DNA of 55,931 nucleotides from positions 1 to 55,931 of the IMG/VR virus record IMGVR_UViG_3300047443_000122; one strand, given 5' to 3'. Positions 4,937-11,925 of the stretch are shown here, piece after piece. The translations under genes and the position numbers were made by a program. The stretch is from a virus. The number at the start of each line of letters is the position of its first letter. Within the stretch, counting starts at the first letter, position 1. The notes beneath the pieces were generated by a model, which was given only the letters and a program-made list of their open reading frames with translations, made no database searches and was not told the DNA's origin.

Positions 4937-5004
4937 AAATTGCCCGCAAGGTATGAATTTCCACTAGAACGCGCATTCGAATACAGGTGTGAGCTGTGTT
5001 AACG

Positions 5005-5019
5005 CAGGTCAGTGACCTG
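5005..5019. promoter_or_regulatory. Perfect 15-bp palindrome between O1 and O2
   Basis: CAGGTCA-G-TGACCTG lies between the two operators and differs in sequence from them. It could be a site for a third regulator or host factor. Its placement in the divergent promoter region makes chance less likely. Confidence 0.5.
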
Positions 5020-5024
5020 ATCGC

Positions 5025-5040
5025 GACTCTTGCGCGGGAG
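5025..5040. promoter_or_regulatory. Degenerate operator copy (weak)
   Basis: GACTCTTGCGCGGGAG retains five of six bases of the right half-site and three of the left. Its centre is 30 bp, about three helical turns, from O2. This spacing is suggestive of cooperative binding, but the match is poor. Confidence 0.3.
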
Positions 5041-5054
5041 GGATTTTCTGGCTA

Positions 5055-5070
5055 CTCCCTAACTAGGGAG
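5055..5070. promoter_or_regulatory. Operator O2, dyad CTCCCT-N4-AGGGAG
   Basis: A perfect 6+6 bp inverted repeat around AACT ends 15 bp before the repressor ATG at 5086. Binding here would block the repressor's own promoter or early transcript, as in autoregulated phage repressors. O1 and O2 centres are 135 bp apart. Confidence 0.75.
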
Positions 5071-5085
5071 GTACAGTTCCGGGAC

Positions 5086-5532
5086 ATGACCGATGCGACC
5101 CCCACACGCGCGCAACGATTCGCCGCCATCGTCGTGCCAGCTGCCGAACACGCCGGCTACACCGGCCACGGCGCCAAAGCGCGCTTCGCGCGGGACACCG
5201 GCATGACCGACAGCAGCGTCACCCGCCTGTGGCAAGGAACCGCCCTCCCCGAGGCGCGGTTCTACGAAGCCATCGCCACCGCAACAGGCATCGACCTCAG
5301 AACTCTCCTCGTGGAAGGTGGCGTTCTGTCGCCTGAATCCCTTCAGTCACTGTCCGAAACGGATCGATCGCAGGTAGGCTCTGGCCTCACGCCGGAGGAA
5401 GCGGCTGATCGACTAGGGATTCGGGACGAAGTGGGGCGCCAGCTTTTCTACGCAACCATCGAACGTCTCAAGCGTCTGCAAGACGACCACGCCGATCACG
5501 CTGAGCCCGGAGGGACAGCGGCACAGATGTGA
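5086..5532 (+). CDS. Phage immunity repressor (CI-like HTH protein)
   Basis: This 148-residue plus-strand gene begins at ATG 5086; an upstream GTG at 4996 would place both O2 and the 15-bp palindrome inside the gene and was rejected. The HTH lies near residues 30-55 (ARDTGMTDSSVTRLWQG). A flexible middle with LSPESLQSLSETDR follows, then a C-terminal helix (LFYATIERLKRLQDD) that may dimerise. It is divergent from the Cro-like gene, with operators between. The expected role is maintenance of lysogeny by repressing the leftward early operon. It stops 13 bp before the membrane-protein gene, implying one transcript from the prophage. Confidence 0.8.
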   Translation: MTDATPTRAQRFAAIVVPAAEHAGYTGHGAKARFARDTGMTDSSVTRLWQGTALPEARFYEAIATATGIDLRTLLVEGGVLSPESLQSLSETDRSQVGSGLTPEEAADRLGIRDEVGRQLFYATIERLKRLQDDHADHAEPGGTAAQM

Positions 5533-5545
5533 GGCGAGGGTGCAT

Positions 5546-6094
5546 ATGAATCTCACGGGCGGCAGACAGGCCACAGGAACAGCAACTCTGGCGGCCGTCG
5601 GGGGACTTGCACTCACCGTCCACGGACTCATGGGCGATAAGCCGCTGTGCTCTTTCAGCGGTGTCACCCTCGTCATGGTCGCGTTGACCGCCATCATCCT
5701 GACCATGATCCGGAAATGGGTCACCGACACCAGCGATGAACGACGTCTCCTCGCCGCAACCCAGCGTGAAGCCCAGGCCGAACGGAGCCGCTACCTCGCC
5801 GCGAAGGCGGCCCTCGTCAACGAACAAGCGCGCATGAGCAAGGACATAGCCGCGGAGCGCGCGGCACTCACCGCCCGGCTCAAGAGCGAACGTGATGCGA
5901 TGCAAGCCGAGTTTGATGCGGCGCTCGGTGAAGTTTCGTCCGATGCGGTGAATATCGCGATGTCCTGGGTTCTTGCTGGAAAGTTCGCCCCGCCGCAGCC
6001 CCAGCAGGGCAACCTCATCCAGTTCCCTCACCAGCAGCCGCAAGGCCAGCCGCAGCGTGAGCGGTCGCGGGAGCACGGAGTCGTCCGGCCCTGA
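5546..6094 (+). CDS. Membrane-anchored coiled-coil protein cotranscribed with the repressor
   Basis: ATG 5546 follows GAGGCGAGGG at good spacing; a GTG two codons earlier is possible. Two TM segments occupy about residues 12-28 and 38-54, then a long charged helix (about 65-140, AATQREAQAERSRYLAAKAA onward) and a Gln/Pro-rich cytoplasmic tail. Similar two-TM coil proteins sit beside phage repressors in Streptomyces. Expression with the repressor in the prophage makes a superinfection-exclusion or prophage membrane role plausible but unproven. Its last 80 bp run antisense to the end of the integrase gene. Confidence 0.7.
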   Translation: MNLTGGRQATGTATLAAVGGLALTVHGLMGDKPLCSFSGVTLVMVALTAIILTMIRKWVTDTSDERRLLAATQREAQAERSRYLAAKAALVNEQARMSKDIAAERAALTARLKSERDAMQAEFDAALGEVSSDAVNIAMSWVLAGKFAPPQPQQGNLIQFPHQQPQGQPQRERSREHGVVRP

Positions 6095-7661
6095 ACCCCG
6101 GCTCACCGAAGAACGCCAGCCGGATACGGCCGTCATCCAATGCGCGCCGGCCAGTCGACTTCACCTTGTGCAGACGCACCGTCACGATCTTCCGGATCAC
6201 CTCGCGTTTCTGATCCATCGTGAGCCCCGGCTCCGCAGGTTGGTCCGCAGTCTGGGGGCGTCCGTTCCATACGAGGTCGGGATCGTTCGACTCCAGCATC
6301 CGGAGCAGCAGTGGCGACACCCCCGTGAACGTCGTCAGCTTCTTCCGCTCCGTCTCCAGCTTCGGCTCCAGCCGCGACTCCATCGCCGCGAGCGAGCCCG
6401 CGGACAGTTTGAACCGGCCGGTTTCCTTGTCGAATTCATGGGCCAGAGCGCGAGCTTCGGCGAGCTGCTCCTCGTAGGCGTTGATCAGCTTCTGTGTGGC
6501 GGCCGCCTTCTCCTTGACCTTGTCGTCCGCCGGTACCAGCGCAGCCCGCGCCGTCTTCTTATCGCTGAACCAGTCGAGGACCGCTTCCTCGACGTAGGCG
6601 TCGAGCACGGCCATGACGATGGAGGTATCGAACTTCTCCTTGCAGACCAGCGTCGTCTTCCGCACGCCACTCGGAGCGAGGTAGCGCAAGACCGCGTGGT
6701 CGCCGCACTCGCCACACAGAGCGACGTACGACAGCAGGTGCTTCGGTTCGGTGCCGCGTTGCGTCCGGCGGGCTGGGTCGGTGAGCTTGGCCGTGACCCG
6801 GTTGAACATGGCCCGGCCCTGCGGGGTGTCGAGTCCCTTGATCGGAGCCCACACGGCTGGGATGTACGTGGTCAGGTGAAGACGTTCACCCAGGTAGGCC
6901 CGGTTCAGCAGCATCTGCCGGACCGCCTGCTCTTTCCACTCGCGACCGTCCGGGCGTGCCGCGTCCGTCTCGGAGCGCAGCCATCGCGTGAGGGCCCTGA
7001 GGGAGTGACCAGCGTCCATGCGCTCCAGGGCCTGGAGTACGTAGGTCCCGCGCACGGGATCTTCGGTCTGTCCCGTGCAGCGCTTGCGCCCGCTGACTGT
7101 CTGGTAGGTGCGGATGTAGCCGTAGATGGCTTTGCCGTGCGGCATGCCTGCCTGGGCTTGGGAGTTGGTGGTGCGGATGTTCCGGTCGCGGATGCCTTCG
7201 GCCTCGTCTTCGGCATCGATGGCGTGCATGGCCGTGGCCTTGCTGTCATCGCGTCGGCTGAGGTCGTAGATCTGGCCGTTGTAGCAGAGGAGGGTGCCGG
7301 TGTCCCGGCATGCTTTCCGGAAGCGGACGTAGGCTTCCAGGTCCCTGTAATAGCGGGATGCTTCGAAGGCGATCACGATGCGTCGCACGCCCCGGGGAGG
7401 GGGCTCCTCGGTCATGGAGGCGATCAGAGCCTCGAAGTCGTCGCGGACCTTGCGGCCGTGGCGGCTGGCTGAGACGTCTGTGTCGTTGAACTCGCGGCGG
7501 ATGCGCCAGTTGTGTCTGTTGCAGAGACCGCGCCCGTTGGCGAGTTGGTCTTCGACGGAGGCGCCGCTGCTTGTGGAGTCGTCGCTGTTGCGGCCGTAGA
7601 GCAGGGCTTCGAAGGTGACGCCGGGGATGACCAGGTGCAGGTATTCGGGCGCGTAGGGCAT
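6015..7661 (-). CDS. int: Large serine integrase
   Basis: This 548-residue site-specific recombinase inserts the phage genome into the host chromosome. The resolvase domain occupies about 15-170, with the nucleophile Ser26 in YGRNSDD and the downstream EASRYYRD active-site arginine region. A recombinase domain follows (about 185-300, GKAIYGYIRTYQ). A zinc-ribbon segment has paired cysteines (ALCGECGDHAV ... VCKEK, about 315-345). A long coiled coil (about 385-450) is the part that controls directionality in this family. The start ATG 7661 has no clear ribosome-binding site, so translation may be leaderless or begin slightly downstream. The probable attP is 24 bp upstream. Length is typical. 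Confidence 0.95.
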   Translation of the reverse strand: MPYAPEYLHLVIPGVTFEALLYGRNSDDSTSSGASVEDQLANGRGLCNRHNWRIRREFNDTDVSASRHGRKVRDDFEALIASMTEEPPPRGVRRIVIAFEASRYYRDLEAYVRFRKACRDTGTLLCYNGQIYDLSRRDDSKATAMHAIDAEDEAEGIRDRNIRTTNSQAQAGMPHGKAIYGYIRTYQTVSGRKRCTGQTEDPVRGTYVLQALERMDAGHSLRALTRWLRSETDAARPDGREWKEQAVRQMLLNRAYLGERLHLTTYIPAVWAPIKGLDTPQGRAMFNRVTAKLTDPARRTQRGTEPKHLLSYVALCGECGDHAVLRYLAPSGVRKTTLVCKEKFDTSIVMAVLDAYVEEAVLDWFSDKKTARAALVPADDKVKEKAAATQKLINAYEEQLAEARALAHEFDKETGRFKLSAGSLAAMESRLEPKLETERKKLTTFTGVSPLLLRMLESNDPDLVWNGRPQTADQPAEPGLTMDQKREVIRKIVTVRLHKVKSTGRRALDDGRIRLAFFGEPGFRAGRLRAPATAHAAAGLAAAGEGTG

Positions 7662-7684
7662 GCGTCGATGTTAGCGAAGTCTTG

Positions 7685-7730
7685 CCATCCCTAAATAGGC
7701 TTGTGGAGCCACAAAGTGGTTTAGGGGTGG
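7685..7730. other. Probable attP of the serine integrase
   Basis: A 46-bp imperfect inverted repeat is centred on the dinucleotide AG (7707-7708). Inner arms TTGTGG/CCACAA and outer arms CCCTAAA/TTTAGGG are perfect and exactly equidistant from the centre, and outermost bases CCAT/GTGG extend symmetry with one mismatch. Attachment sites of large serine integrases are imperfect dyads of about 50 bp with a 2-bp central crossover, usually next to the integrase gene, and this fits in both size and place. Confidence 0.75.
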
Positions 7731-7963
7731 TTATTTGTTGGGTCCGGCTGGTCCGGCGGGGTGGCGTCGCAGACCTCGTCGACGAGCTCCAGCGTCTCGT
7801 AGAGGCGGATGCGTAGCTGTTCGACGATCAGGATCAGGGACGCCGGCTCCAGCTGCGCAAGGTCCTCGGCCCGGAAGGTTTCCAGGTCGCGACGTGCGTA
7901 GTCGATCTGGGCCTTCTGGATGTCGGTCAGGCGCGCTGGTGGGCGTGGGGGGTCTTCGTGCAT
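7721..7963 (-). CDS. Small acidic helical protein next to attP
   Basis: An 80-residue protein starts at ATG 7963 behind AGGTG; a GTG four codons earlier is possible. It is mostly helical (LTDIQKAQIDYARRDLETF, LILIVEQLRIRLYETLELV), with Pro-rich ends. Its stop codon (7723-7721) lies inside the probable attP, so integration would leave it at the edge of the prophage. It is in the same orientation as the integrase and shares the divergent promoter region with the XRE repressor. It could be an accessory factor for integration or excision. No recombination directionality factor family is recognisable. Confidence 0.65.
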   Translation of the reverse strand: MHEDPPRPPARLTDIQKAQIDYARRDLETFRAEDLAQLEPASLILIVEQLRIRLYETLELVDEVCDATPPDQPDPTNNHP

Positions 7964-8201: not shown

Positions 8202-8435
8202 GTGCCCACCGATCCCCTGCCCGCCCGGGTACTCGCCCGCCGACAGGCCATCGGAGACCGCATCCGCGCCGCCCGGACTGAGCGGAAGCTCACACAGGAG
8301 AAGCTCGGCGAGGCGACGGGCCTGGACCGCAAGACAATCAACCGGATCGAGAACGGCGCGTACGCGACGCTCATCGACCACCTGATCCTCATCGCCGACG
8401 CCCTCGACACCCCGCTCGTCGACCTCGTGAGGTGA
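8202..8435 (+). CDS. XRE-family HTH regulator
   Basis: This 77-residue protein is essentially one XRE helix-turn-helix domain (about residues 16-72), with GDRIRAARTERKLTQEKLG, recognition helix GLDRKTINRIENG and the usual IADALDTPLVDLV end. The start GTG 8202 has no obvious ribosome-binding site; no better in-frame start exists upstream. It faces away from the integrase side gene, with three palindromes between, so it probably represses itself and the leftward transcript toward the integrase. A double-hairpin terminator follows immediately. It could equally be a host-acquired regulator carried by the prophage. Confidence 0.8.
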   Translation: MPTDPLPARVLARRQAIGDRIRAARTERKLTQEKLGEATGLDRKTINRIENGAYATLIDHLILIADALDTPLVDLVR

Positions 8436-8500
8436 CCCGCCGCAAGCCCATCGGGAGCACTGCGGCGGGTCACGACGGCCACCGCTGACAAGCGGCCGTC
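8432..8500 (+). terminator. Double hairpin after the XRE gene
   Basis: A 13-bp perfect stem (8432-8444 with 8461-8473) overlaps the stop codon. It is followed at once by a second stem, GACGGCC/GGCCGTC (8474-8480 with 8494-8500). There is no T-run, which is normal for this GC content. Since the next gene is convergent, it may stop transcripts from both sides. Confidence 0.65.
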
Positions 8501-8555: not shown

Positions 8556-8753
8556 TCAGGCGCCGAGCGTCCCCGCCCTCACGCCCTGGAGGAACGCGCC
8601 CCAAGCGTCGCCCGAGGCGGCTGCGGCGGGAATGCCGCGGTCCTTGGTGTCACGGAAGAACGCCCCGCCGGTGGTCTTGGCGACCTCGACGCAGGCCCCG
8701 TTGCCGCCGGAGTAACTGGACGTGGCCCAGGTGAGGTCGTCGGTGTTGTGCAT
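8556..8753 (-). CDS. DUF397 domain protein
   Basis: A 65-residue protein has the DUF397 signature throughout: TWATSSYSGGNGACVEVA (about 7-24), FFRDTKDRG and DAWGAFLQGVRAG. Start ATG 8753 follows AAAGG. DUF397 genes are abundant in Streptomyces chromosomes, where they neighbour HTH regulators of the WhiJ/AbaA type that affect development and antibiotic production. Here it lies downstream of an HTH/TPR regulator and two small genes, so the phage carries a host-type regulatory cassette. The molecular role of DUF397 is not established; an antagonist role toward the partner HTH protein has been discussed for the host systems. Confidence 0.9.
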   Translation of the reverse strand: MHNTDDLTWATSSYSGGNGACVEVAKTTGGAFFRDTKDRGIPAAAASGDAWGAFLQGVRAGTLGA

Positions 8754-8781
8754 GGTGCGCCTTTCAGTAGTTGTTCTTGAC

Positions 8782-8818
8782 GGGTGGCCGTCTGTCCCGT
8801 CGGACCAGACGGCCACCC
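8782..8818 (-). terminator. Hairpin terminator before the DUF397 gene
   Basis: A perfect 13-bp stem (GGGTGGCCGTCTG with its complement at 8806-8818) has an 11-bp loop. It lies between the Cys-containing gene and the DUF397 gene on the minus strand, suggesting that DUF397 has a separate promoter in 8754-8781 or is reached by read-through. No T-run. Confidence 0.55.
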
Positions 8819-8923
8819 ACCCGCGGCGTCACGGTCTACCCAGCGCGCGCCGCGGGTTCACCGCTGCCGTTTGGCAACACAGGTCGGCAGCGGAGTCTTC
8901 AGTGGGGTAGAGACCGGGGGTCG

Positions 8924-9121
8924 TTATGACCACGTGCTCCCGGACGTGTCCGTGAGGCTGCGGCGGCCGTTGAAGCGGTCGACGTGCTTGCCGGCGTGAC
9001 CGGGCCGGAGTGTGCAGCGGCCCGCCTTGCGCGGGTTCCGTGCCCAGCAGTAGCCCGCCGCCCGCCCGGCTGCGCGGGACTTCTCCTCATTGTCCGGGAA
9101 CGCCGGCTTCCGCCCGCTCAT
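8924..9121 (-). CDS. Small Cys/His-containing protein, 65 aa
   Basis: ATG 9121 overlaps the previous stop (ATGA). A basic protein with YCWARNPRKAGRCTLRPGHAG and HVDRFNGR, an arrangement (two Cys, two His) that could bind a metal. Short Streptomyces proteins with C-T/L-x-x-x-G-H-x-G-x-H are frequent beside HTH regulators. Its role is unknown, but it is part of the cassette encoded from 9462 to 8556. Confidence 0.65.
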   Translation of the reverse strand: MSGRKPAFPDNEEKSRAAGRAAGYCWARNPRKAGRCTLRPGHAGKHVDRFNGRRSLTDTSGSTWS

Positions 9122-9462
9122 GCGGCTGCCCTGCCCTGCTTGGCGAGCTGCTGGAGCGCGTGCCCCTGGTCGCAGCCCGGGGCGGAGTCCTTGCATGTGT
9201 GGCAGTCCTGGGTGTGGTCCAGGAGGGCCCGATACGCGGCGCGGCGGGTGCAGGCGCGGCAGCCGCGCGGGTACCAGGACACGGGCTCCCCGGCGCGGCT
9301 CGCGCTTTGCACGCCAAGGTCGACCGCGGTCGCGGGCGTGAGGGCGATACCGTCCCACACGCAGGCCATCCCGCGGACCTGGTGCTCAGACAGTCCGGCG
9401 ACGCCAGGGATGGCTAACAGGTCGAGCACGCTGGCCTGGCTGGTGTGGGTTTCCGCTTGCAT
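9118..9462 (-). CDS. Cys-rich protein linked to the HTH/TPR regulator, 114 aa
   Basis: ATG 9462. The C-terminal half holds RGCRACTRRAAYRALLDHTQ followed by DCHTCKDSAPGCDQG, a C-x2-C / C-x2-C-x6-C array suited to zinc. The N-terminal half resembles a short helical domain. Proteins of this form occur as companions of large HTH/TPR regulators in Streptomyces, and here the regulator gene is the next one upstream, separated by 123 bp holding repeated operator-like sequence. Confidence 0.7.
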   Translation of the reverse strand: MQAETHTSQASVLDLLAIPGVAGLSEHQVRGMACVWDGIALTPATAVDLGVQSASRAGEPVSWYPRGCRACTRRAAYRALLDHTQDCHTCKDSAPGCDQGHALQQLAKQGRAAA

Positions 9463-9525
9463 GTCTCACGCCTCCGCGGTCACGGTGATCCGTCTCACAT
9501 CCGGGACCGTAAGGCGCAGCAGAAA

Positions 9526-9579
9526 GCCGAGGGGGTACACCTCCTACCCCCTCGGCCACGGGTACAGTTCCTACCCCCT
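9526..9579. promoter_or_regulatory. Dyad plus direct repeat between regulator and its partner gene
   Basis: A 12+12 bp inverted repeat GCCGAGGGGGTA/TACCCCCTCGGC (9526-9537 and 9545-9556) overlaps a 20-bp direct repeat matching 18/20 between 9533-9552 and 9560-9579 (GGGTACAxxTCCTACCCCCT). On the minus strand it follows the HTH/TPR stop and precedes the Cys-rich gene. The dyad alone could be a terminator of the regulator gene. The direct repeat points to an operator for it. Confidence 0.6.
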
Positions 9580-9585
9580 ACGTGA

Positions 9586-10839
9586 TCACACGGGCACACC
9601 CAGTTCCCGCGCCAGCCCCAACGCGTCATCCCGGACCATCCGCGGCCCCGACTTCACCAGCTCCGGCAGCACCGACCGGGTGTGCAAGTTGTACTGGATC
9701 GTCTCCGGAGACTCACGGAACGCCTTCCCCAGCAGCGACACCGCGGCCGTGCCCTCCCCAAGCATTCCGTGCGCCCGGGCCGACTCGATCAAGTGGTACG
9801 AGCGGCGCGTCGCCGATGGAATCTGGCCCAGGTCCAGCGCGTCCGCAACCTCCAGCGCCTTCGCGGGCTGCATCAGATCGTTGTGCATGGTGATCGCGTA
9901 CCCGTTGACGATGCCCCGCCCGAAGACCAACCAGGGGTGCGCGTAGTCGTCACCGAGCTGGCGGGCAGCGTCGTCGGCCTTGTCCCAGTACCGCCACGCA
10001 TCCCCCTGCTGGCCCGTCTTCGCGTACGACAGGGCCACCGCGAGATACAGCAGCCCGCGGCGGGCAATGTGTTCCGGGTCCTCTCTGTCCTGCAACAGGG
10101 CGGCGGCCTGCTCGGCGAGGTCGACGCGCGCCTCCGCGGCTTCTCCGGCGTCACGGTGGACGTGGTTCATGTACCAGGCGGCGGCCGCGATCGCGCGCGG
10201 GCTGTCCGCGTCCTGCGCAGCCGTCATGGCCCGGTCGCCGGTGAGGACGACGAGATCCGGCGCGGGCTGGAAGCTGAGGAACAGTTGAGCGAGGTGGTAG
10301 GTCTCCGCGAGCGAGACCAGCGCCCGCCGGCGCTCCGCCCCTTCAAGGGCGCGTGCCGCGTGCTGGGTGTCGGCGAGGAGGCTGGGCAGTAGGCCGACGA
10401 TGCGGGTGCGGTTCCCCTCCACCGTCGTCCCGTGGTTGGTGCGGGGGTCGCTGTCGTGCCACAGCTTCCATGCGGTCCGCAGCCGGGCGGCGAGGATCTC
10501 CGCGGACTCCGGCTCGCGGTCGTCGGGGGCGAGCTGGTAGGTGGTGAGAGCACGCTTCACGGTCGGCAGGGCGCCGTGCTCCGCCTTCGTGTAGGTGGCG
10601 GCTGCGAGGCGTTCTTCGCCGGTGAGTTCGGCGAGGTCTTCGATGCCGAGGACGTGCGCGAGCCTGAGTAGTTTCGGGAGGCGGGGCATTCCGATGCGGC
10701 CTGTCTCGATGGCTTTGACCCACTCGGCGGACTGGTCCATGAGGCCTGCGACGACGGCGCGGGTTTTCCCGGTGCGTAGGCGGGCGTGTTGGACGCGCTG
10801 GCCAAAGGTAGGGGGTGCGGTGTCGGTGTGCTCGGGCAT
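9586..10839 (-). CDS. HTH/TPR transcriptional regulator, 417 aa
   Basis: ATG 10839 follows GGAG at six bases. An N-terminal XRE HTH (about 12-70, FGQRVQHARLRTGKTRAVVA, MDQSAEWVKAIETGR) is fused to a helical repeat region of TPR type (about 150-417), with repeated A-x-x-Y motifs and ARDAGEAAEAR-like helices. This architecture is the common Streptomyces regulator type in which the TPR part senses a peptide, protein or stress signal. In a phage it is unusual. Its neighbours (Cys-rich protein, small Cys/His protein, DUF397) match host chromosomal cassettes, so lysogenic conversion of the host is the most attractive reading. Codon usage looks like that of its neighbours. Confidence 0.8.
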   Translation of the reverse strand: MPEHTDTAPPTFGQRVQHARLRTGKTRAVVAGLMDQSAEWVKAIETGRIGMPRLPKLLRLAHVLGIEDLAELTGEERLAAATYTKAEHGALPTVKRALTTYQLAPDDREPESAEILAARLRTAWKLWHDSDPRTNHGTTVEGNRTRIVGLLPSLLADTQHAARALEGAERRRALVSLAETYHLAQLFLSFQPAPDLVVLTGDRAMTAAQDADSPRAIAAAAWYMNHVHRDAGEAAEARVDLAEQAAALLQDREDPEHIARRGLLYLAVALSYAKTGQQGDAWRYWDKADDAARQLGDDYAHPWLVFGRGIVNGYAITMHNDLMQPAKALEVADALDLGQIPSATRRSYHLIESARAHGMLGEGTAAVSLLGKAFRESPETIQYNLHTRSVLPELVKSGPRMVRDDALGLARELGVPV

Positions 10840-10848
10840 ACTGGACTC

Positions 10849-10873
10849 CGTTCTGACCTAGACACTCAGAACG
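10849..10873. promoter_or_regulatory. Inverted repeat CGTTCTGA-N9-TCAGAACG
   Basis: A perfect 8+8 bp dyad lies 10 bp upstream of the HTH/TPR gene start and is a candidate autoregulatory operator. It is unlike the repeats downstream of that gene. Confidence 0.5.
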
Positions 10874-10907
10874 CTACTCCCCCTCCGCGTGGGGGATATG
10901 GCGGTTG

Positions 10908-10944
10908 CGCCCCCTGTTCGGCCTGCGGGCCTGTTCAGGGGGCG
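10908..10944. terminator. Hairpin CGCCCCCTG/CAGGGGGCG
   Basis: A 9-bp perfect stem with a 19-bp loop between two divergent genes. It has no T-run in either direction. It may be a transcript-leader structure for the plus-strand gene at 10979 rather than a terminator. Confidence 0.35.
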
Positions 10945-10978: not shown

Positions 10979-11158
10979 ATGTCCCCCACCCCTCTGCCTA
11001 GCGGCGCTGTGCGGCCTGCTGCGGTCGTGAATGAGGACATCCGCGCCCTGTGGCCGCGCGCGCGGGCGGAGCTCACCGCGGAGGAACGCGAGGCGTACGA
11101 GCGGCTGTTGGTGGAGTGGGCGGCCGCGGTCCGGGCCGAGGTCGTCGAGGCCGCGTAG
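10979..11158 (+). CDS. Small plus-strand protein, 59 aa
   Basis: The likely start is ATG 10979, giving a helical protein with VNEDIRALWPRARAEL, EEREAYERLLVEWAAAVRAE. An ORF extending 30 codons upstream lacks helical character and was not used. A strong intrinsic terminator about 100 bp downstream on the same strand supports a real plus-strand transcript here, divergent from the HTH/TPR gene and opposite to all lysis genes. The function is unknown. Similar short W/E-rich helical proteins are common in Streptomyces. Confidence 0.6.
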   Translation: MSPTPLPSGAVRPAAVVNEDIRALWPRARAELTAEEREAYERLLVEWAAAVRAEVVEAA

Positions 11159-11255: not shown

Positions 11256-11284
11256 GCCCCCGGGGTGGTGCCCGGGGGCTTTTT
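11256..11284 (+). terminator. Intrinsic terminator with T-run
   Basis: GCCCCCGGG/CCCGGGGGC stem (11256-11264 and 11271-11279) with a 6-bp loop is followed by TTTTT at 11280-11284. It is oriented to end the plus-strand transcript from 10979. The late minus-strand operon ends at 11284 on its other side, so the hairpin may serve both. Confidence 0.85.
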
Positions 11285-11925
11285 CACAGGTACTTGCGGC
11301 GCGGGTCGAGGCCTGCGGCGAGTGGGGTCGGGGTGCTGCTGCTGCCCGGATCGGGGGCGCCATCGCGGCGGCACACCAGCGCATCCGGGTCGTACGAGGG
11401 CGCCTGAAGGCTGTATCCGTCCGGGCAGGTCTGCCCATCCTGCCCGTCACGTCCGTTCGTCCCGTCCTGCCCCGCAGGTCCAGCCGGTCCCTGCGCGCCC
11501 TGGGCTCCTGTGGGTCCGACAGGACCGGCCGGACCGACCGCTCCGGGACTGCCCGCGGACCCCGTCGCGCCCGCCTTCCCCGGAGACCCGGACGGCCCCG
11601 GAGAACCCGCCGGGCCCTGCGGCCCAGGGATCGGCACCGGGACCTCCGTTCGTGCGGGCAGATTGTCCACAGCCTTCGTCGGGTCCGGAGCCACCGGAGT
11701 CCCACCCCGCGCCTGCACCTGCGCCCGCAGCGCCCGCACATCCCCCGCCAGCGTGGACACCGCATCGCCCCGCTTGTTCGCCTCAGCCGCGGCCGCCGCA
11801 TAGTTGCGGTCCGAGGAGTCGATGCGATGCCACAACGCCCACGAGATCCCGAACAGGCAGAGGATCGCGCACAGGGTCGCGATACCCCGCCAGTGCAGGA
11901 CGATCGTGCGCTCGGTCCGGGTCAT
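11284..11925 (-). CDS. Membrane-anchored collagen-like protein in the lysis cassette
   Basis: This 213-residue protein begins at ATG 11925 (ATGA overlap). Residues about 12-32 form one TM helix (IATLCAILCLFGISWALW). Residues 36-72 form a charged helical stalk. Residues about 100-165 are Gly-X-Y triplets (GPQGPAGSPGPSGSPGKAG and on), a collagen-like triple-helix region. Then a short Cys-containing tail (TCPDGY, ALVCRRDG) and a Ser/Pro end. Phage collagen-like regions are usually in tail fibres; here the TM anchor and the position after holin and endolysin suggest an envelope-spanning role in late lysis or in host-surface modification. Last gene of the late operon. Confidence 0.8.
   Translation of the reverse strand: MTRTERTIVLHWRGIATLCAILCLFGISWALWHRIDSSDRNYAAAAAEANKRGDAVSTLAGDVRALRAQVQARGGTPVAPDPTKAVDNLPARTEVPVPIPGPQGPAGSPGPSGSPGKAGATGSAGSPGAVGPAGPVGPTGAQGAQGPAGPAGQDGTNGRDGQDGQTCPDGYSLQAPSYDPDALVCRRDGAPDPGSSSTPTPLAAGLDPRRKYL

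Follow-up and report, generated by a model that had tools for sequence, protein, structure and literature searches.

A candidate moron-like regulatory operon with a tandem palindromic element and a BldB-family gene in a virus genome

The virus genome examined here, that of a temperate Streptomyces phage, is the entire IMG/VR record IMGVR_UViG_3300047443_000122 (55,931 bases, hereafter 'the window'), and our subject is a block of four genes on its minus strand, located between the lysis genes (approximately 11.3 to 13.4 kb, with tail genes farther on) and a serine integrase (6015-7661, phrog_95 profile match). In order, these genes code for a regulator with a helix-turn-helix (HTH) domain and tetratricopeptide repeats (TPR), a Cys-rich protein, a small Cys/His protein and a DUF397 protein. 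With confidence that is about evenly divided, we read this locus as an accessory, independently transcribed (moron-like) regulatory operon in which the regulator would act on its own promoter and on a downstream promoter, and in which the DUF397 protein would act in trans on the host. A moron-like nature is suggested by promoter-like boxes and hairpins, which are recognized by sequence only, and by the exchange of the gene in the regulator slot among related phages. The main features are as follows (pLDDT, predicted local distance difference test score).

10850-10872: palindrome GTTCTGA-N9-TCAGAAC at the start of the regulator gene, perfect match
9586-10839, minus strand: regulator with an HTH domain (PF13560) and a TPR superhelix, 417 aa, phrog_5823, model pLDDT 90.3
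9560-9576: operator-like palindrome 1, GGGTA-N7-TACCC, twelve bases past the start of the regulator stop codon
9533-9549: operator-like palindrome 2, exactly 27 bp from palindrome 1 and extended here into a 12-bp hairpin stem
9506-9511, minus strand: TACGGT, -10-like box of the downstream operon, in conserved columns
9118-9462, minus strand: Cys-rich protein, 114 aa, first gene of the downstream operon, with homologues that adjoin HTH/TPR-type regulators
8924-9121, minus strand: small Cys/His protein, 65 aa, overlapping the Cys-rich gene by 4 bases
8556-8753, minus strand: DUF397 (BldB-family) protein, 65 aa counted from ATG, PF04149 match with E 1e-15

Tandem palindromes and the promoters they may control

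The element behind the regulator gene consists of two direct repeats (9533-9552 and 9560-9579), each of which is also palindromic. The pair is present at the 27-bp spacing in 40 of 65 aligned family members (three or fewer mismatches of 20), while each other spacing from 20 to 35 bp is observed zero or one time and shuffled sequences yield none. Outside this position, the same loci contain single sites at a background of 0.007 per equivalent stretch. Core columns that are invariant in one palindrome copy are also invariant in the other. The paired columns covary, and this covariation is abolished by sliding the pairing. The TACGGT box resides at a fixed distance of +77 from the regulator stop codon in most Streptomyces-type members, with the next start codon at about +125. 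When 150 Streptomyces genomes were scanned with the pattern alone, the strict pair was found at five places, four of which are directly behind genes for HTH/TPR homologues (48-82% identity); one of these four (L034) was already in our collected locus set.

We propose that the HTH/TPR protein would bind the tandem palindromes, which are centered at approximately -64 and -37 relative to the expected start site, and that this binding would control the downstream promoter. A consensus scan returned no sigma-70 consensus promoters, as is expected at this G+C content, and no -35 box was recognized at the downstream promoter. Due to the position of the element, its rigid spacing and this lack of a recognized -35 box, activation by contact with RNA polymerase seems more likely than repression.

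Alternatively, the tandem palindromes could be mere terminators of the regulator gene, with the later genes served by an ordinary promoter. Such a function would suit palindromes that begin 12 bp past the stop codon, whose stems covary, and of which the second forms a 12-bp stem with UUU after it. However, terminators need neither an exact 27-bp spacing across genera, nor an identical core in both copies, nor a fixed distance to a -10 box, and we consider this explanation unlikely.

The palindrome at the start of the regulator gene overlaps a TAGCGT -10-like box (10871-10876, minus strand), and is kept in close phage relatives, in phage Chymera and in several chromosomal copies. The order of hairpin (10908-10944), TAGCGT box and palindrome recurs in relatives. 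It is probably an auto-operator, through which the HTH/TPR protein would repress its own promoter. An earlier reading of the letters alone, hereafter the sequence-only reading, had proposed operator-like repeats at 9526-9579 and 10849-10873. Both were borne out, as the palindromic repeats at 9533-9579 and the palindrome at 10850-10872, and both are kept in relatives.

The gene that comes next after the tandem element varies by locus, and can code for a Cys-rich protein, a DUF6415 protein, an HATPase_c_2 (AbaA-like) protein, a member of a 150-aa family or small Cys proteins. At five chromosomal loci (L057, L067, L087, L102 and L106), HTH/TPR regulators are directly or closely followed by an HATPase-type (anti-sigma/AbaA-like) gene, as checked with Pfam in L067 only. 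A strict tandem element in L171 (1480-1545) lies close behind a DNA C5-methyltransferase gene, in a mobile-element-like setting with no HTH/TPR gene beside it.

The regulator family in phages and chromosomes

The regulator matches PF13560 (HTH_31, E 3e-10) and, over nearly its full length (residues 9-416), the phrog_5823 profile (E 4e-101). Its AlphaFold2 model shows an HTH followed by a TPR superhelix, and its ratio of nonsynonymous to synonymous substitution rates (dN/dS, 0.15-0.22) reflects strong purifying selection. Homologues were found in 21 phage records (all Streptomyces phages), in 23 IMG/VR loci and in at least 80 actinobacterial genome loci. As had been claimed for a host-type regulator, Streptomyces chromosomes carry copies that are 75-84% identical and have ordinary host flanks. 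The tree requires at least 7-8 switches between phage and genome copies, counting starred branches alone; the 'genome' label was assigned by neighboring genes, and some copies at contig ends may be prophages. Judged by this distribution, the family is common to actinobacterial chromosomes and phages and has been repeatedly exchanged.

The regulator gene adjoins lysis genes in the phages Chymera, Ignacio, OnionKnight and SF3 and in most IMG/VR loci. The products in these four phages (Chymera gp24, Ignacio gp25, OnionKnight gp26 and SF3 gp260) belong to the same phrog_5823 family. Chymera, whose gp24 is 68% identical to the window regulator, shares both the start palindrome and the tandem palindromes with the window, and OnionKnight also carries homologues of the Cys-rich and Cys/His proteins. 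Unlike the window, the regions fetched around these four regulators revealed no DUF397 gene.

The layout of an HTH followed by TPR is also that of the RRNPP regulators (ComR, PlcR, Rap and arbitrium AimR). Fold matches to ComR (E 4e-4) and to Rap and PlcR (approximately 1e-3 to 3e-3) were obtained; however, Tom71 and LGN, which are generic TPR proteins, match equally well, and all template modeling (TM) scores are below 0.5 by query length. Confident RRNPP membership is therefore not supported. No secreted-propeptide gene was found beside the regulator gene, whose next neighbor is that for the 114-aa Cys-rich protein (signal peptides were assessed by visual inspection only). We also considered and rejected short peptide genes downstream of the tandem element, as the candidates are mostly 50-200 aa and unrelated to each other. 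A peptide-sensing (RRNPP) role may serve as a lead from the model, not as membership, and the TPR groove might bind a ligand or a protein that sets the response of the downstream promoter.

HTH and TPR sensors such as arbitrium AimR act as lysis-lysogeny switches. By the same token, the regulator could be the immunity repressor or the lysis-lysogeny switch of this phage, and the downstream genes its lysogeny operon, as might be expected from its location near the integrase, its operator-like sites and its phage-wide family. However, a separate repressor-like gene (4996-5532, plus strand; phrog_3949, HTH_31) lies beside the integrase, and this gene more likely encodes the immunity repressor. 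Furthermore, OnionKnight has both a homologue of the regulator and an annotated immunity repressor, other regulators replace the HTH/TPR protein in related phages, and chromosomal copies exist without a surrounding prophage. An immunity function for the HTH/TPR protein is therefore rather improbable.

The DUF397 protein and its small Cys companions

The DUF397 protein retains the family-conserved pattern W..SSYSGGNGACVEV...RDTK...W..F, with the S-Y-S, C-V-E-V, R-D-(T/S)-K and W..F positions all present in the alignment. By this measure it is a bona fide BldB-family protein. Among 22 distinct phage loci with this regulator, DUF397 is present in only two, L011 and that of the window lineage. Proteins of the same group (68-100% identical) are found in the viral loci L115-L123 behind Cys-rich and/or small Cys genes, where other regulators occupy the slot. 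These include XRE-DUF5753 plus DUF6879 (L115 and L119), HTH_31 plus CYTH (L121), GntR (L118) and an HTH/TPR protein of only 24% identity (L120); the domains were checked in L119, L121 and L118, and L115 was assigned by resemblance. Thus, the genes for the Cys-rich, small Cys/His and DUF397 proteins form a unit that occurs behind several unrelated regulators. In the DUF397 tree, a branch with a support of 93 (not starred) places nine phage sequences together on one side. A host-type regulator set is evident in two sister phages, in which a cassette of XRE-DUF5753, DUF6879 and a small protein occupies the same slot on the opposite strand (L119, 3565-5211; L115, 3493-5276).

Host genomes provide a second view of this protein. 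DUF397 matches are present in 145 of the 150 Streptomyces genomes, and so a possible network of trans partners exists in nearly all hosts. The best host match to the window protein reaches 54% identity, which rules out, for the sampled genomes, that the gene was recently acquired from an XRE-DUF397 pair of the host. An XRE-DUF5753 gene lies beside 23 of the 30 best host matches. The genes upstream of DUF397 in the window are those for the Cys/His and Cys-rich proteins, and the HTH/TPR protein lacks DUF5753 in the Pfam search. Host DUF397 genes within 1 kb of chromosomal HTH/TPR genes (L065 and L090) were set aside as too few versus chance, given approximately 20 or more DUF397 genes per genome. 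No relative of DUF397 with a solved structure was found.

The sequence-only reading viewed the block as a captured host development cassette, carried as a whole set, with DUF397 and the HTH/TPR protein as direct partners. The genes are indeed neighbors on the same strand, and overexpression or deletion of Streptomyces XRE-DUF397 pairs alters antibiotic production and development; these pairs do not behave like toxin-antitoxin systems (PMC10364602). What stands of the host-like cluster is that the pair of regulator and Cys-rich genes also occurs in host chromosomes; the four genes are not a fixed or complete host set. DUF5753 (PF19054), the domain of the usual XRE partner, gave no match in the window, although the control genomes of the same search were also empty and hmmscan did find PF19054 in L119 and L029. 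The occurrence of DUF397 in two of the 22 regulator loci, and elsewhere behind other regulators, rules it out as a fixed partner, and the identity of sampled host proteins is at most 54%. That reading had also held that it would fail if relatives lacked the cassette, and such a lack is found for DUF397, not for the regulator. We find the captured-cassette explanation quite improbable. A decoy that titrates host partners, which was offered as another role, may apply, as it is favored by the promiscuity of DUF397. A toxin-antitoxin or addiction pair, with DUF397 as the toxin and the HTH protein as the antitoxin, was predicted for DUF397-Xre pairs (PMC2701414), but is highly implausible since 0 of 14 S. 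coelicolor pairs behaved in this manner (PMC10364602), the two genes are not adjacent here, and DUF397 is often present where this HTH protein is absent.

The Cys-rich protein carries the motifs CVWD...CRAC and H...CHTC...C. Its genes adjoin HTH/TPR-type regulators, including divergent ones, in phages and in host chromosomes without phage neighbors. Searches of Pfam, PHROG, NCBIfam and PADLOC returned no match, solved structures gave no convincing match, and the model (pLDDT 83) gave no fold match. The dN/dS values are approximately 0.5 in most comparisons for the Cys-rich protein and 0.4-1.0 for the Cys/His protein. Both are probably small effectors, putatively zinc-binding, that would be produced from the downstream promoter.

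Layout of the locus and its possible meaning

Several additional features lie within or beside the block.

10979-11158, plus strand: divergent ORF of 59 aa, neighbor upstream of the regulator gene
10908-10944, minus strand: hairpin upstream of the regulator promoter, z -4.2
8782-8818, minus strand: strong hairpin before the DUF397 ribosome-binding site, z -4.1
8432-8473: 13-bp perfect inverted repeat between DUF397 and the convergent xre77 gene, z -5.8
8202-8435, plus strand: 77-aa Cro/C1-type HTH protein (xre77), convergent neighbor outside the operon

The claim that the four genes share one orientation proved correct, as all are on the minus strand. Conservation in relatives supports the status of all four as genes, with the small genes under far weaker purifying selection than the regulator. 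After DUF397 the slot continues with the convergent 77-aa HTH gene and then the integrase, and this HTH gene is kept between operon and integrase in related phages. Many related phages keep the 59-aa open reading frame upstream of the regulator, at 52-100% identity (dN/dS 0.35-0.44). A hairpin recurs in relatives at the position of 10908-10944 with different sequence, and is probably a terminator that shields the regulator from the late/lysis operon; the inverted repeat at 8432-8473 is probably a bidirectional terminator. Hairpin-capable, GC-rich sequence of varying composition occupies the equivalent of 8782-8818 in L011 and L118-L123. A terminator had been included in the sequence-only reading, and hairpins do bound the block (10908-10944 and 8432-8473). 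The T-run terminator of the consensus scan (11256-11279), however, sits outside, downstream of the 59-aa open reading frame and in the opposite direction.

Two other observations were made nearby. An imperfect palindrome, CCTAAATAGGCTTGTGGAGCCACAAAGTGGTTTAGG, is found at 7680-7735 immediately before the start of the serine integrase gene, and appears attP-like by eye. A gene for a collagen-like, membrane-anchored protein (11284-11925, minus strand; phrog_1806, collagen-like minor tail) comes right after the putative holin genes and is kept in several related phages.

We expect that the DUF397 protein, as a phage-specific BldB paralogue, would influence host gene regulation in trans while the phage is lysogenic. 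The neighboring regulator is a less likely partner for it than a conserved host protein of the BldB or WhiJ type, and a host partner of this kind is the simplest explanation for the occurrence of this DUF397 group with several unrelated regulators. BldB forms hetero-oligomers with paralogous proteins, and WhiJ9 is a repeat-binding protein that represses itself and activates a neighboring gene (PMC10294661). By analogy, the locus may function in the manner of a whiJ-effector-bldB locus, although it is not itself one. As in the Streptomyces XRE-DUF397 and whiJ-bldB-(abaA, iosA) loci, an XRE-type regulator, a small effector gene and DUF397 share one locus. Unlike those loci, the window regulator combines HTH and TPR without DUF5753, DUF397 is non-adjacent and of a phage group, and its operator-like sites take the form of two palindromes located after the regulator gene.

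Several points weigh against the interpretation of the locus as an accessory operon with these activities. The dN/dS of DUF397 (0.5-1.3) fits fast adaptation but also weak constraint. The fifth strict pair from the genome scan is behind a C5-methyltransferase gene rather than an HTH/TPR gene, and at some chromosomal loci the element cannot serve the next gene, which is convergent. The tandem palindromes can additionally form hairpins, of which the second is terminator-like in this phage. Furthermore, the tandem pair differs in sequence from the start palindrome, and one HTH need not bind both. Co-variation between recognition helix and operator was sought across the family, and nothing clear emerged.

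Some components were already known, as phage DUF397 genes are in databases and the regulator is a known PHROG. Actinophage DUF397 genes have been partly annotated before in Ididsumtinwong (XRE-DUF5753 plus DUF397) and PIS 136 (HTH_31 plus DUF397), yet these gene pairs overlap in the host style and their DUF397 proteins fall outside the group of the window. In the literature searched, no detailed description of these HTH/TPR regulators or of phage DUF397 was found. To our knowledge and within that literature, three features are new: the conserved tandem element of fixed geometry, the swapping of the effectors that follow it, and a group of phage DUF397 proteins that co-occurs with small Cys genes. 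A broader proposal, which we put forward tentatively and regard as somewhat doubtful, is that the HTH/TPR protein and the tandem palindromes would constitute an undescribed actinobacterial switch that is traded by phages and chromosomes, each driving a different small effector, and that is coupled here to a phage-adapted BldB paralogue entering the host BldB/WhiJ network in trans.

Few regulators of Streptomyces development are as poorly understood as BldB, and the ways in which temperate phages affect development or antibiotic production are largely uncharted. The gene content of this locus suggests that a dormant phage can touch the development network of its host. A phage-specific BldB paralogue that keeps constant small Cys company under changing regulators would offer a direct test of phage access to the BldB network. 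Likewise, a rigid cis element that recurs across several actinobacterial families makes it possible to predict, for many regulators not yet studied, the DNA site, the promoter and the target gene.

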